From Enterovibrio norvegicus DSM 15893 (GTDB taxonomy: Bacteria > Pseudomonadota > Gammaproteobacteria > Enterobacterales > Vibrionaceae): 64,000 nt of DNA. Positions 37,069 through 42,858 of this stretch are shown one piece after another. A program made the translations under genes and the position numbers. Every line of letters begins with the position of its first letter. The first letter of the stretch is position 1. The notes under the pieces are model-generated. The model did no database searches and was not told the DNA's origin. It saw only the letters and a program-made list of their open reading frames with translations. Location: contig NZ_FOWR01000019.1 of assembly GCF_900115495.1 (NCBI RefSeq), forward strand, positions 1-64,000, given 5' to 3'.

Positions 37069-37800
37069 ATGAAGTTCTATCGACGCTGGCAACCTGTGAA
37101 CGCATTGACGTTTGATCTTGATGACACGCTTTACGATAACCGTGTGGTCATCGTGCGCGCTGAACAGTTGTTGCTCGATTGGTTGGAAGACCGCTGTGAA
37201 GCCATGGCGGCTTTTGATTGGTCACAATGGCAAGTGATGCGCCAACGAGTGATTGATGAGAATCCGTCATTGATTGGGTTTGTCACGGAAATACGCCGCG
37301 CACAGATCGTGCTGGCAGCCACTCTATGTGGTTTGCATGCACCGGAAGCGCGCCTGCTGGCTGATGACGCAGTGGCATTTTTCTTGTTTGAGCGCAGCAA
37401 CTTCACTGTGCCTGATGAGGCGTTAGAAACCTTGTCTTTGCTTGCGTCTCGTTACCCGCTGGTGGCGATCACCAATGGCAATGTAGACAGCGATAAGCTT
37501 GGTTTAACGCCGTATTTTAAACAGGTGCTGAGAGCTGGGCCTGATGGTGCGGCTAAGCCTGACGGCACGTTGTTTGTCAAAGCCCAACAAGCGTTGGCCA
37601 TGCCCGCCTCTGACATTCTTCATGTGGGCGACCATTTGAAATCGGATGTGCGTGGAGCGGTGTTGGCAGGTTTTAAAGCGTGCTGGTTCAATGACACGCG
37701 CCAACCTTTGACGCAGCAGCGTCGTGCGTCACTCTTACCTGATGTGGAAATTTCTCACCTCAGTCAGCTTCTGACGCTGACAGGGTGTGTAGAGTCTTAG
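37069..37800 (+). CDS. yigB: HAD-family phosphatase YigB (5-amino-6-(5-phosphoribitylamino)uracil / FMN phosphatase)
   Basis: This 243-residue haloacid-dehalogenase-fold hydrolase shows motif I TFDLDDTLYDN (the two catalytic Asp), motif II AITNG, motif III Lys in KPDGTLF, and motif IV HVGDHLKSDV. E. coli YigB acts on FMN and on the riboflavin intermediate; that substrate is inferred here from orthology. It closes the lptM-lysA-dapF-DUF484-xerC run. In E. coli uvrD follows directly, whereas here a four-gene minus-strand operon lies in between. Confidence 0.92.
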   Translation: MKFYRRWQPVNALTFDLDDTLYDNRVVIVRAEQLLLDWLEDRCEAMAAFDWSQWQVMRQRVIDENPSLIGFVTEIRRAQIVLAATLCGLHAPEARLLADDAVAFFLFERSNFTVPDEALETLSLLASRYPLVAITNGNVDSDKLGLTPYFKQVLRAGPDGAAKPDGTLFVKAQQALAMPASDILHVGDHLKSDVRGAVLAGFKACWFNDTRQPLTQQRRASLLPDVEISHLSQLLTLTGCVES

Positions 37801-37843: not shown

Positions 37844-37869
37844 AAAAAAAGCGCCTAGGCGCTTTTTTT
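37844..37869. terminator. Bidirectional terminator between yigB and doxX
   Basis: Seven A, the palindrome GCGCCTAGGCGC and seven T form a symmetric terminator that can stop both the yigB transcript and the convergent buf operon. A smaller hairpin (GGGCAA with TTGCCC) precedes it at 37804-37821. Confidence 0.88.
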
Positions 37870-37888: not shown

Positions 37889-38326
37889 CTAGCCACGCCG
37901 TTTAAGAAAGTTATCAACGGCTGCCAAGCCTGGGCCAAGGATAACGGTCGCCAGCAGCATGATGCCCCACATTTGGTGATCGTAGAACCCTTTCTCCCAC
38001 AGTGCTGGGTATGACACAACCGCGACGATGTTGAACACAAACAGTGCAAGCGCAGCAGGGCGCGTCAACAAACCCAATACCAAAAACACGGGAAGGATCA
38101 ATTCAGCCGCGGTGCCAAGGTAAGCCGCAAGCTCCCAAGGTAGCACGGGCACTTGGTACTCATATTCAAACAAGTACAAGGTGCTGTCCCAACTGGCGAT
38201 CTTTGTTTGGCCTGCGCGGAAAAACACCCACGCCACCCAAAGGCGACTTATAAGCAACAGTACTGGAACCAAAGGCTTTAGCGCGGATTCCATCAGGCTA
38301 TCAATTTTATTTAATACAGCAATCAT
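37889..38326 (-). CDS. DoxX family membrane protein in the bufferin operon
   Basis: This 145-residue protein has four membrane helices and DoxX features: SRLWVAWVFFRAGQTKI, the helix with TAAELILPVFLVLGLLTRPAA, and a C-terminal helix ending NFLKRRG. DoxX proteins often accompany MNIO-dependent peptide operons and may be an electron carrier or membrane partner; this role is inference. It lies 66 bases after bufC on the same strand and is the last gene before the shared terminator. Confidence 0.88.
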   Translation of the reverse strand: MIAVLNKIDSLMESALKPLVPVLLLISRLWVAWVFFRAGQTKIASWDSTLYLFEYEYQVPVLPWELAAYLGTAAELILPVFLVLGLLTRPAALALFVFNIVAVVSYPALWEKGFYDHQMWGIMLLATVILGPGLAAVDNFLKRRG

Positions 38327-38392
38327 CTGCTATTTCCTTTTCATTCTCAGTCATCAAATAACGTGCTGTGCCAAGCTAAATCAGTGCGTAGG

Positions 38393-39151
38393 CTAAAGTT
38401 GGTCAGCAATATCAAAGTGTTCAAACACACCACGCTGAACCGCGGGTGCGATGTGTTTAAGCAGTTCTGGGTCAATGCCACCTAAGGTGCTTTCATTGCT
38501 CGCCACGATCAGTGAGGCTTCCTCTGCATCAATGGCTTGCAACTGAATGCCTTGCTCGTTCATCAACAAAAGCACGGTTTCACTTTCTGATAAATCGAGG
38601 GCTTGCAGTGCATTCCCATCATTGTTTGTCACTGCGTGCCAAATGCTGGCAGCCGGAAAGCGGCTTTGAAGCAGTCGCACAGACGGCGCGACAGTCAGCT
38701 TCAGCGCATCAAAGTCTTCGGGAGCAACCTGCGCGAGGGCGTCCAAAGGGAAATCCGTGGCGCAAGATGCGTGTTTGTTCACCGCTTGTATTAACCACTC
38801 TAACGTCGCGATGTCGGCCAGGTAGGGCACGGCATCAATGATGTTAGGAATGGCATTAATGGTGGCGTCAAAACCATCGCCATATTGGTCGGCACGCGCA
38901 TCAAGCATGGGCGTATTCAATACATGGTGTCGCGCCAAAGCATTGAAGCAGTCTTCACCGACAAGAGCGTGTACCACGGGATACACGACTTCAAGGTACT
39001 CCGATAGCGTCATCACGAAGTTATTGCGATACACCTGGAGCAGTGCATCGGGCTCCGCGACGCCTTCGTCAACGGGCAGCGCGTAGGGCTGGTAATGCAG
39101 CGCTTGGCTGAACTGCTGTTGCAACGAGGCCAATGACGGTGAGTCACTCAT
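38393..39151 (-). CDS. bufC: BufC-type partner protein (DUF2063)
   Basis: This 252-residue protein has the N-terminal DUF2063 domain (ALLQVYRNNFVMTLSEYLEVVYPVVHALVG) and a C-terminal domain of the same family. In bufferin systems this protein partners the MNIO enzyme and is thought to bind the precursor. DUF2063 is sometimes labelled putative DNA-binding, but nothing here indicates DNA binding. Its start overlaps bufB by four bases, showing tight coupling. Confidence 0.88.
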   Translation of the reverse strand: MSDSPSLASLQQQFSQALHYQPYALPVDEGVAEPDALLQVYRNNFVMTLSEYLEVVYPVVHALVGEDCFNALARHHVLNTPMLDARADQYGDGFDATINAIPNIIDAVPYLADIATLEWLIQAVNKHASCATDFPLDALAQVAPEDFDALKLTVAPSVRLLQSRFPAASIWHAVTNNDGNALQALDLSESETVLLLMNEQGIQLQAIDAEEASLIVASNESTLGGIDPELLKHIAPAVQRGVFEHFDIADQL

Positions 39152-40002
39152 GACGCCTCCTTACGCACCATTGAAGCGACGGCTTTAACAATGCGGTCGG
39201 CTTTCGCCGCTTCTGCCAATAACACTTCTGGCGCAGGGATATCTCTGTCCCACTCAATCAAGGTGTGTCTTGGACCATGTTGGGATATCCATTGTTCATA
39301 GAGCGCCCAAACAGGCTCAGAGACAGGCTGGCTGTGTGTATCAATCCAAATCTCGCCTTCTGGCAAGGGATTGACAGTAAAGCCTGCCAAGTGAATTTCT
39401 TTCACGCTGTTAGGGTCAATAACATCGAGGTAGTGCTGCGCGTCAAAGCCATGGTTAAAGGCACTGACGTGAATATTGTTTAGGTCGAGCAGTAAGCCAC
39501 ACCCCGTTCGACGAGAGACTTCGGTGAGAAAATCCCATTCCGACAAGGTCGAATGACTGAAGCTCAAATAACTGGATGGGTTTTCAACCAAGATTTGACG
39601 ATTTAAGTAGTCCTGCGTTTTGTCGACATTGGTGCAAAACACATCGAGGGCTTCTTCGGTATAAGGCAGGGGCAACAGGTCATTGAAGTATTCCCCGTTA
39701 ACCGAACTCCAACTTAAATGCTCTGACACAAATAGTGGGTCAATGGCATCAATCAAATGCTTGAGCTGTTGAAGGTGTTGAACATTAATGGGGTCAGTCG
39801 ACCCAAGTGACAACCCAACGCCATGGCAACTGATGGGGTATCGGCGCTGCAAAGAATGCAGCGCCTGAAACGCATCGGAATCAGGTTGGAAAAAATTCTC
39901 ACTGTGTACTTCTAACCATCCAATATCCGGGGATTCTTGTTCGAAGTAGTCGTGGTGTGGATGACGTAACCCAACACCGACCCAAGGAGATATTTTTTCC
40001 AT
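39148..40002 (-). CDS. bufB: BufB-type multinuclear non-haem iron oxidase (MNIO, DUF692)
   Basis: This 284-residue TIM-barrel protein is of the DUF692 family, which contains iron enzymes that oxidise cysteine residues in ribosomal peptides. Metal-ligand motifs run through the chain: EVHSENF (Glu31, His33, Glu35), CHG (His60), SEHLSW, ENPSSYLSF, DLNNIHVSA, EIHLAGF, DTHSQPV and IEWD. The set looks complete. The gene is 24 bases after the bufA precursor and overlaps bufC. The product is expected to convert Cys residues of BufA in the cytosol before export. Confidence 0.92.
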   Translation of the reverse strand: MEKISPWVGVGLRHPHHDYFEQESPDIGWLEVHSENFFQPDSDAFQALHSLQRRYPISCHGVGLSLGSTDPINVQHLQQLKHLIDAIDPLFVSEHLSWSSVNGEYFNDLLPLPYTEEALDVFCTNVDKTQDYLNRQILVENPSSYLSFSHSTLSEWDFLTEVSRRTGCGLLLDLNNIHVSAFNHGFDAQHYLDVIDPNSVKEIHLAGFTVNPLPEGEIWIDTHSQPVSEPVWALYEQWISQHGPRHTLIEWDRDIPAPEVLLAEAAKADRIVKAVASMVRKEAS

Positions 40003-40026
40003 ACCTTTTCTTCCGTAATTGTCAGC

Positions 40027-40287
40027 TTATGATGAGGTGCTTGAGCTACCTGACAAACGATCACATAGGCCTTTTGGTACAACGATGAATGCATCAGATT
40101 GTGCGTCTTTAGTAGAGGTACCTGCACATGAGCTGGTGTTTGTTGCACAGTCATTTTTACCGGCTTTGGCTACGCCATAGCACTTCTCTTTTTCTGCAGC
40201 GTGAACCGCGGTGGTGGTCAGGGTAGTTGCACCCACAGCAAGTAAACCGGTAACAGCAGCAGCAACAGCAAGATTGGTCTTTTTCAT
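40027..40287 (-). CDS. bufA: BufA1-type bufferin precursor (DUF2282)
   Basis: This 86-residue exported peptide has a Sec signal peptide (1 to about 30, ending TTAVHA), then a mature region with four cysteines at 36, 47, 54 and 75. The spacing and motifs [22 protein letters not shown] and VVPKGLC are the DUF2282/BufA1 pattern. By published family knowledge such peptides are modified on Cys by the MNIO enzyme and bind copper in the periplasm. The ATG has GAGG nine bases upstream. It is the first gene of the operon, facing uvrD across 393 bases. Final residues are Ser-rich (GSSSTSS). Confidence 0.92.
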
Positions 40288-40680
40288 GTTTAATCCTCAC
40301 TCTTAGGACTCAGCAGTCCTCAAGATTATCAATCGGTTGTGGTAGGGCGGGTCTTCAATAACGCGCTCAATTAAAAAGATAGGCTGTGAGGACAAAAACT
40401 TTCGCATTGGCGTCCATTTTTTCGCCATTAACGCACCGTTTCGTGGTTTTTTTAAGCAAAATATTTTTTAAGCTCATGATATATAGTCTTAAAACATCAT
40501 GTGGTAAAAAAGAAAAAATATTCACAAACATGATGCTTTTTCGGTAATCACCTGGGTGAAGATGATGAATGAGAGGGGTGGTTTCCATTTTGAGCTCAGA
40601 AAATCGGCGTGAAGCGAGCAACGCACGCCACTTTGGGTATATAATCCTCAACCAGTGTATAAATAACCAGTGAATGAACG
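40288..40680. promoter_or_regulatory. AT-rich divergent region between bufA and uvrD
   Basis: No gene is supported in these 393 bases; the open frame on the minus strand is very AT-rich and lacks protein character. The centre (about 40440-40550) is strongly AT-rich. It holds an interrupted inverted repeat CATCATG/CATGATG near 40495 and 40533. Near uvrD, a TATAAT at 40640-40645 is a candidate -10, and AACCAGTG is directly repeated with 15-base spacing. No ECF-sigma gene lies beside the buf operon, so its regulator is elsewhere. Confidence 0.4.
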
Positions 40681-42858
40681 ATGGACGTATCCCACCTCAT
40701 AGATGGTCTCAACGATAAACAACGCGAAGCCGTGGCTGCGCCGCTTGGCAACTACTTGGTGCTGGCGGGAGCGGGAAGTGGTAAAACCCGTGTGCTTGTT
40801 CATCGTATCGCTTGGTTAATGCAAGTGGAGCAGTCATCGCCTTTTTCTGTGTTGGCGGTAACCTTCACCAATAAGGCGGCGGCAGAAATGCGTGGTCGTA
40901 TCGAACAACTGATGCATGGTACGGCGTCAGGACTTTGGTGCGGGACCTTCCACGGTTTGTGTCACCGCATTCTGCGCGCGCATCATCTGGATGCGAGCTT
41001 GCCGCAGGATTTCCAAATTCTCGATTCAGATGACCAACAGCGTTTGCTGCGTCGTTTGATCAAAGCGCAAAACTTGGATGAGAAACACTGGCCAGCGCGT
41101 CAGGCGTCTTGGTACATCAATGCCAAAAAAGACGAAGGGCTGCGCCCACAACACATTGACGCGCAATTCGATCCGGTAGAGAAAACCTGGCTACGCGTTT
41201 ACAGCGCATACCAAGAAGCGTGCGATCGTGCAGGCTTGGTTGATTTCGCTGAACTCCTGTTGCGTTGTCATGAATTGCTGCGCGATAAAGCCCATATTCG
41301 CGAGCACTACCAAGCGCGCTTTAAGCACATCTTGGTGGACGAATTCCAAGATACCAACAACATCCAATACGCATGGCTTCGCATGATGGCGGGCACACAA
41401 GCCAGCGTTACGATCGTGGGCGATGATGATCAGTCTATCTACGGCTGGCGCGGTGCGAAAATTGAAAACATTCAACGTTTCTTGGATGATTTCACTGCCG
41501 CGAAAACCATTCGTCTTGAGCAGAACTACCGTTCAACGGGTAACATTCTAAAAGCTTCTAACCACTTGATTGAAAACAATGCCGAACGCATGGGCAAGAG
41601 CCTGTGGACGGATGGCAAAGAAGGTGAGTTGATTTCGGTTTACAGCGCGTTTAATGAATTGGATGAAGCGCGTTTTGTTGTCGGAAAAATCAAAGCGTGG
41701 CATGACGATGGGGGCGCCCTGAATGATTGCGCCATGTTGTACCGAAATAACGCCCAATCCCGTGTGCTGGAAGAAGCCTTGATTCAAGCGGGCTTGCCTT
41801 ACCGTATTTATGGCGGCATGCGATTCTTCGAGCGCCAAGAGATCAAAGATGCGTTGGCTTACCTGCGTTTGATGGCGAACCGTTTTGATGATGCTGCCTT
41901 TGAACGCGTAGTGAATACCCCCACCCGTGGTTTGGGCGATCGCACCTTAGAAACCATTCGTCTGGCAGCGCGTGATCGCGGCGCGACAATGTGGGAAGCC
42001 AGTACACAACTTCTGGAAGAGCAAGTGCTGGCAGGCCGTGCAGCGAACTCACTGCGTCGTTTTATCGAACTGGTGAACGCACTGGAAGACGATACCCGTG
42101 AAATGGCCCTGTTCCAACAAACGGATTACGTCACCAAACACTCTGGCCTTCGTGCGATGTACGAAGCGGAAAAGGGTGAGAAAGCCCAAGCACGTATTGA
42201 TAACTTGGAAGAGCTGGTGACGGCCACCCGCCAATACGAAGTGCCTGAAGAGGTACAGGAAACCATGTCGCCATTGTCGGCGTTTTTGTCTCATGCGGCG
42301 CTGGAAGCTGGTGAAGGCCAAGCCGATGAGTTTGAAGATGCGGTGCAATTAATGACGCTGCACAGCGCCAAAGGTCTCGAATTCCCATTGGTCTTCATGG
42401 TGGGTGTGGAAGAGGGCATGTTCCCAAGCCAAATGTCGTCAGAAGAAGCTGGGCGTTTGGAAGAAGAACGCCGCCTTTGTTATGTCGGCATGACCCGTGC
42501 GATGAAAAAGCTCTTCATTACTTACGCAGAAATGCGCCGTGTTTACGGCAAAGACATGTTCCATAAAGCATCTCGCTTTATTCGTGAATTACCGGAAGAG
42601 TGCTTAGAAGAAGTGCGGATGCGCGCGAAAGTGACGCGCCCTGCAGCGTCTAGCGGTCGTTTCTCGCAAACGCAGACCCAATCAAACTTCAACCAAACGG
42701 GCTTTGCACTTGGACAACGTGTACAGCACCCTAAATTTGGCGAAGGCACCATCATTAACTTTGAAGGCAGTGGCGGTCAAAGCCGTGTGCAAGTGGCCTT
42801 TAATGGCGAAGGCATTAAGTGGCTGGTGACGCAATATGCCAAGCTTGAAGCTTTGTAA
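40681..42858 (+). CDS. uvrD: DNA helicase II UvrD
   Basis: UvrD is the 3'-5' superfamily 1 helicase of nucleotide-excision and mismatch repair. The 725-residue protein has all helicase motifs: GAGSGKT (motif I), VDEFQDTN (II), VGDDDQSIYGWRGA (III), the QNYRST region (IV) and TLHSAKGLEF (V), plus the C-terminal extension ending in the Tudor-like PKFGEGTIINFEG. The start MDVSHLIDGLNDKQREAV aligns with E. coli. No LexA box was recognised upstream. Confidence 0.97.
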   Translation: MDVSHLIDGLNDKQREAVAAPLGNYLVLAGAGSGKTRVLVHRIAWLMQVEQSSPFSVLAVTFTNKAAAEMRGRIEQLMHGTASGLWCGTFHGLCHRILRAHHLDASLPQDFQILDSDDQQRLLRRLIKAQNLDEKHWPARQASWYINAKKDEGLRPQHIDAQFDPVEKTWLRVYSAYQEACDRAGLVDFAELLLRCHELLRDKAHIREHYQARFKHILVDEFQDTNNIQYAWLRMMAGTQASVTIVGDDDQSIYGWRGAKIENIQRFLDDFTAAKTIRLEQNYRSTGNILKASNHLIENNAERMGKSLWTDGKEGELISVYSAFNELDEARFVVGKIKAWHDDGGALNDCAMLYRNNAQSRVLEEALIQAGLPYRIYGGMRFFERQEIKDALAYLRLMANRFDDAAFERVVNTPTRGLGDRTLETIRLAARDRGATMWEASTQLLEEQVLAGRAANSLRRFIELVNALEDDTREMALFQQTDYVTKHSGLRAMYEAEKGEKAQARIDNLEELVTATRQYEVPEEVQETMSPLSAFLSHAALEAGEGQADEFEDAVQLMTLHSAKGLEFPLVFMVGVEEGMFPSQMSSEEAGRLEEERRLCYVGMTRAMKKLFITYAEMRRVYGKDMFHKASRFIRELPEECLEEVRMRAKVTRPAASSGRFSQTQTQSNFNQTGFALGQRVQHPKFGEGTIINFEGSGGQSRVQVAFNGEGIKWLVTQYAKLEAL

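Follow-up and report, generated by a model that had tools for sequence, protein, structure and literature searches.

The junction between the core genes yigB and uvrD of Enterovibrio norvegicus DSM 15893 is occupied by a bufferin-type operon, and it raises two questions: when did the operon come to lie there, and how is it switched on with no sigma-factor gene beside it? We examined both in the 64,000-nucleotide stretch of contig NZ_FOWR01000019.1 that carries the locus (hereafter the window) and in genomes of the family and the order.

Gene content and bufferin type of the operon

Four genes lie on the minus strand in the order bufA, bufB, bufC, doxX. The first, bufA (40027..40287), encodes an 86-residue Buf1 (DUF2282) bufferin precursor (Pfam DUF2282, 81.3 bits, cut-off 22.4). 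The product of bufB (39148..40002) is a 284-residue bufferin maturase of the MNIO family (DUF692), which passes both NCBIfam MNIO_BufB (380 bits, cut-off 310) and Pfam PF05114 (MbnB_TglH_ChrH; 354.4 bits, cut-off 25). A DUF2063 partner protein of 252 residues is encoded by bufC (38393..39151; Pfam DUF2063, 64.8 bits, cut-off 27.2), whose reading frame overlaps that of bufB by 4 bases, and the operon ends with doxX (37889..38326), encoding a DoxX-family membrane protein of 145 residues (Pfam DoxX, 69.4 bits, cut-off 23.6). These matches lie far above chance level. The flanking genes are both on the plus strand: yigB (37069..37800; NCBIfam PRK10748, 229.8 bits, cut-off 225) is convergent with the operon, and uvrD (40681..42858; PRK11773, 1305.9 bits, cut-off 965) is divergent from bufA, with the two start codons 393 bp apart. 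A consensus scan placed an intrinsic-terminator-like hairpin 3' of doxX, between doxX and yigB (37844..37869, minus strand), in a region where 8 such hairpins were seen vs 3.2 expected. An Rfam scan returned a single match, below threshold.

Open reading frames and Pfam and NCBIfam matches thus bear out the gene order and flanks given in a preliminary description of this DNA, as well as its bufferin-type identity: precursor, MNIO, DUF2063 and DoxX genes, the core of a bufferin cluster (PMC12452194), are all present. BufA was filed as Buf1 because it is a DUF2282 member and scores below the cut-off of the NCBI BufA2 model (26.7 bits, cut-off 60); no Buf1 model matched it in the NCBI model library. 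The score and the four cysteines, against six conserved in Buf2, both place it outside Buf2, although the BufA2 model matches all 18 family BufA members examined (best E 3.5e-7). Membership of the HvfA/oxazolin (EGKCG) group is not indicated either: the BufA sequence contains no EGKCG repeats, BufB falls short of the HvfB model (225.4 bits, cut-off 360), and BufC matches the HvfC model weakly (26.5 bits, cut-off 142); this model matches 13 of 15 family BufC members. By sequence, BufB matches the solved MNIO proteins 3BWW and 8HCI and the MbnB entries of the PDB, where no partner protein matched BufC; the length of BufC agrees with that published for two-domain (DUF2063 + RRE) partners (PMC12452194). 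The closest BufB among the named matches listed, 97% identical, is that of Enterovibrio baiacu.

The precursor itself is strongly conserved. An alignment of 18 family members, which are near-identical, has 34 invariant positions, including Cys 36, 47, 54 and 75, and exactly four cysteines occur in 61/61 precursors from 58 junctions. At least two serines stand among the last eight residues in 57 of these 61. In Buf1 peptides, four cysteines are conserved, the first and last forming a disulphide and the central two being modified, according to PMC12452194. The four cysteines and the Ser-rich tail to which the preliminary description drew attention are therefore present in BufA, and we reject them as distinctive traits: the former are a Buf1 hallmark (PMC12452194) and the latter is common in the family. 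By eye, the BufA N-terminus shows lysines, a hydrophobic stretch and an AxA-like site, a putative signal peptide of the Sec type. Separately, a tandem pair of bufA genes precedes bufB at three of the 58 junctions (L063, L067 and L068, all Photobacterium).

The genome contains one other MNIO match, on contig C89 (L001:1187-3083), in a system of the Buf2 kind. Like the window operon, this system combines an MNIO above the BufB cut-off with a DUF2063 protein, and its MNIO is 42% identical to the window BufB; in contrast, its precursor is a BufA2 (102 bits, cut-off 60), the window's bufA being the one DUF2282 match in the genome.

Age of the uvrD site

The preliminary description had proposed that the operon was inserted into the core block here, and comparison of the junction in relatives was among its suggested checks. 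Of 150 Vibrionaceae genomes surveyed, 148 have a located uvrD, 123 an MNIO match at E up to 1e-20 and 132 a located yigB. The MNIO adjoins uvrD divergently in 118 of the 148. The remaining 30 comprise 26 without an MNIO match and four with an MNIO elsewhere, namely G002, whose MNIO and uvrD are each close to a contig end, and three genomes (G062, G074 and G113) with a distant MNIO only (30-31% identity). The two genomes in which uvrD was not located, G018 (without an MNIO) and G073 (with an MNIO beside yigB), are outside this count. Carriers of the site can be linked to Enterovibrio/Grimontia, Photobacterium and Vibrio, and a precursor gene was present at all 58 junctions examined out of the 118. 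In Photobacterium (n = 50), yigB adjoins uvrD in every genome and the operon lies between them in 49. In Vibrio (n = 50), yigB is next to uvrD in none, being on the uvrD contig at least 34 kb away in 20 and on other contigs in 30, and the operon stands beside uvrD in 41. A search for named loci through BufB gave 21, of which all 20 from Vibrionaceae have a divergent uvrD together with bufA, bufC and doxX; since several are contigs already in the family survey, they overlap it in part and do not sample the family independently. The remaining locus, from an acidobacterium, lacks this arrangement save for a weak DoxX match.

The site appears confined to the family. Our order-wide control of 119 genomes included 70 from other families with an MNIO match, whatever its type, at E up to 1e-30; uvrD was located in 69 of them, and in none of these 69 does an MNIO lie within 10 kb of it. 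In these families, 32 MNIO matches are on the uvrD contig, at distances of 517 kb or more, and all others are on different contigs. Within the Vibrionaceae, BufB distances track UvrD N-terminal distances (r = 0.70 over 56 junctions), a correlation reached in none of 2000 permutations.

A recent, independent insertion of the same operon between yigB and uvrD in the E. norvegicus lineage would account for the orientation of its genes against both flanks and for the closed yigB-uvrD junctions of three genomes without an MNIO match (107 bp in G019, 210 bp in G069 and 241 bp in G082). We consider it very improbable, given the occupied junction in 118/148 family genomes and the correlated distances of BufB and UvrD. 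Moreover, G069 and G082 look like losses because 6/8 and 49/50 genomes in their respective genera carry the operon. The family survey and the order control together lead us to reject a recent event. Instead, the operon probably arrived once at uvrD, near the origin of the family, and was then inherited mainly vertically, with several losses; site counts and the BufB/UvrD distance correlation, rather than a tree, underlie this dating. Insertion into the core block is thus not peculiar to this genome, and within the Vibrionaceae the operon proves largely ancestral at the site, the outcome that the preliminary description had set against its own proposal; because the site is absent from all 69 genomes of other families, an insertion near the family's base remains likely.

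A fixed-spacing element upstream of bufA

We aligned the bufA-uvrD gap of 14 Enterovibrio/Grimontia genomes. Most of it is unconserved, apart from two blocks before bufA and a stretch by uvrD. The two blocks form a promoter-like element, CGAAAGTTTT-N11-CCTATCTTTT (40374..40404, minus strand), supported by the alignment, a matrix search and pattern scans; its second block begins 96 nt upstream of the bufA start codon. Across the family the consensus is YGAAAKWWTT-N11-YCTWTC. The matrix search covered 58 of the 118 junctions (57 fetched, plus the window) and allowed spacings of 8 to 21. The spacing is exactly 11 in 56/58, and 57/58 exceed the 95th percentile of shuffled sequences when scored with a matrix trained on these same 58 sequences. 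The element is absent from G020, where the operon is present, and in G147 it scores 13.2 at a different spacing; low scores, of 15 to 20, were obtained for G022, G024, G108, G130 and G137. Of the 20 loci from named Vibrionaceae, a stricter regular expression recovered the element at 13; four of the seven missed are Photobacterium.

The element is also rare. With two mismatches allowed, the window contains one match vs 0.06 expected, and the exact pattern occurs once in the genome, compared with 0 for a reversed-pattern control. Over 12 genomes, the exact pattern gave 10 sites in nine genomes, nine of the sites at bufA, and was absent from G046, G021 and G072. The one extra exact copy lies in a Vibrio genome (G051; L112:1501-1531), approximately 125 nt before an open reading frame that by eye resembles a flavin reductase. 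Allowing two mismatches gives 7 matches in the E. norvegicus genome vs 8 for the reversed pattern, so no wider regulon can be claimed. No such element was detected in the 390 nt searched upstream of the C89 Buf2 system (best score 0.5), which in this respect differs from the window operon. Outside the family, a close Buf1 precursor locus in G036 (L025:1217-1477) has a partial element with the second block CCGGTT, whose score of 14.2 lies between the 95th and 99th percentiles of shuffles; the other loci searched outside the family score 3.2 (L027) or below 2 (seven loci).

Two further features of this region were observed. The 5' end of the bufA mRNA (window 40319-40373, minus strand) may carry a stem-loop of varying sequence 3' of the promoter. 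In a set of 56 family sequences that omits G020 and G147, which are without a good element, 47 have a stem score of at least 10 after the promoter, vs 35% of letter shuffles; the window copy is weak and gave no such stem. Folding of this 5' end has a mean z of -1.25 against dinucleotide shuffles, with 26/56 below -1. The second feature, immediately 5' of uvrD (window 40655-40670, minus strand), is a CTG-N10-CAC site that is near-invariant in the 14 Enterovibrio/Grimontia genomes. We take it to resemble a LexA box; the loose pattern occurs 35 times in the window vs 35.7 by chance.

Candidate regulators and proposed function

No sigma or anti-sigma gene was found among the open reading frames between yigB and uvrD, the main ones of which were scanned against Pfam, in agreement with the preliminary description. 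This differs from Caulobacter, where Buf1 operons CC3254-CC3257 and CC2907-CC2905 share the DUF2282, DUF692, DUF2063 order and the four-Cys precursor (PMC3511200, PMC12452194), and CC3254-CC3257 also the DoxX gene. There, sigF and a gene for a DUF1109 negative regulator (CC3253 and CC3252) stand beside CC3254, and the sigma-F site, GTAACC-N16-CGAA (PMC3511200), is clearly different from CGAAAGTTTT-N11-CCTATCTTTT. Both the promoter element and the neighboring genes therefore speak against sigma-F-type control in the window. The earlier expectation that regulation differs from the better-studied cases holds for the promoter; an unlinked regulator is not unprecedented, since the sigma-F-dependent DUF2282 operon CC2907-CC2905 is likewise located away from sigF (PMC3511200).

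Which factor might read the element? Two short blocks, a fixed spacing and an unconserved spacer have the form of a sigma-factor site, and on that form we infer that a sigma factor acting in trans recognizes it. The genome has 12 Sigma70_r2 loci, four of which were assigned to RpoD, RpoS, RpoH and FliA by open-frame length; the other eight were taken as ECF. None of the eight is beside the operon, and by eye none has a DUF1109-like partner. One is a PRK12517-type ECF gene with a DUF3379 neighbor (L118:498-1782, contig C25); a literature search on DUF3379 found no paper. We then compared sigma loci in 20 further genomes, taking Sigma70_r2 hits among the matches listed and reading 50 loci. The PRK12517-type ECF was found, among the matches listed, in 16 of the 21 genomes, including all nine surveyed genomes with the fixed-spacing element (G000, G016, G046, G063, G101, G072, G023, G041 and G024, the last with a weak element) and also G147, with its weak element of other spacing. 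It was not found among the matches listed for G020, where two of seven loci were read, as RpoE and SigZ types. Among ten surveyed operon-less genomes it is present in six (G093, G097, G043, G082, G019 and G149) and was not found in G077, G004, G069 and G119, among the matches listed and with few loci read. No strong element lies upstream of the 16 PRK12517-type genes, and with a best score of 5.1 there is no sign of their autoregulation; the highest score at any sigma locus, 15.5 at spacing 10, comes from the operon-less G043. On these thin grounds the PRK12517-type ECF is the best, weakly supported, candidate regulator of bufA.

A more specific proposal is that a dedicated alternative-sigma promoter, YGAAAKWWTT-N11-YCTWTC, has the bufferin operon as its one strong target in Vibrionaceae and is recognized by a distantly encoded ECF factor, the PRK12517 type being one candidate. 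This is tentative; we would put it somewhat below even chances. It has to be weighed against the element being an activator site before a housekeeping promoter, or a variant of an RpoH- or RpoE-type general sigma site. The TGAAA of the element is similar to the 5' half of heat-shock promoters, and the RpoE consensus is partly matched by GAAAGTTTT. RpoE itself was identified by sequence in six genomes (E. norvegicus, G147, G020, G119, G069 and G077), with frequent matches in the others. Yet G020 has RpoE and lacks the element, a simple consensus scan found no sigma-70-type promoter at the element, and the second block is CCTTTC in 14/14 Photobacterium sequences, unlike TATAAT. Together with the sigma-site form of the element, these observations make an activator or general-sigma site rather unlikely.

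Taken as a whole, the locus is in all likelihood a canonical Buf1 bufferin operon that reached uvrD around the base of the family and would have its own conserved promoter and an ECF-type sigma factor in trans. By analogy with characterized relatives, BufA would be synthesized with a Sec signal peptide, BufB and BufC would oxidize its two central cysteines to thiooxazoles, and the modified peptide would be exported to sequester copper in the periplasm, with DoxX as a putative accessory membrane protein. Thiooxazole formation is reported to cost about 4 Da per modified cysteine. After its arrival at the junction, the operon would have descended mainly vertically, with losses, and bufA would be transcribed from its own promoter with the help of an alternative sigma factor of the ECF type whose gene lies at another locus.

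The operon might instead serve mainly another metal or stress, such as gold, chromium or oxidative stress. The corresponding genes of Legionella are responsive to gold as well as copper (PMC5413113), the Caulobacter operons were found to be sigma-F-dependent in a chromium study (PMC3511200), and doxX hints at further stresses (PMC12452194). Because the characterized Buf1 product binds copper and helps growth under copper excess (PMC12452194), we regard such a main role as improbable and favor copper buffering. The gig (gold-induced genes) operons of Cupriavidus and Legionella are themselves called bufferin clusters in PMC12452194; that of Legionella has a metal-induced promoter and is carried by an integrative element present in some strains only (PMC5413113), whereas most of the family genomes sampled have the operon of the window at a core locus. 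Captophorins, reported as enriched in Vibrionales, likewise pair an MNIO with a DUF2063 partner and have DUF2282 among their precursor classes (PMC12668002).

As a system, then, the operon is ordinary; its site is old, and its conserved promoter-like element was not found in print. The words "uvrD" and "promoter" are absent from the main text of PMC12452194 and PMC12668002, and no paper on the bufferin-uvrD junction or the bufA promoter was found by title or abstract opening among the matches listed, which mostly exclude subscription literature. What had been supposed a local insertion is instead shared across the family: most Vibrionaceae genomes sampled have, beside uvrD, a RiPP operon predicted to buffer copper. 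The conserved element offers a concrete, testable starting point for learning how expression of a bufferin operon is turned on where no sigma gene is adjacent. If the proposed dedicated promoter is real, the family would have kept, for as long as it has existed, a one-target copper-response circuit with an unlinked regulator.
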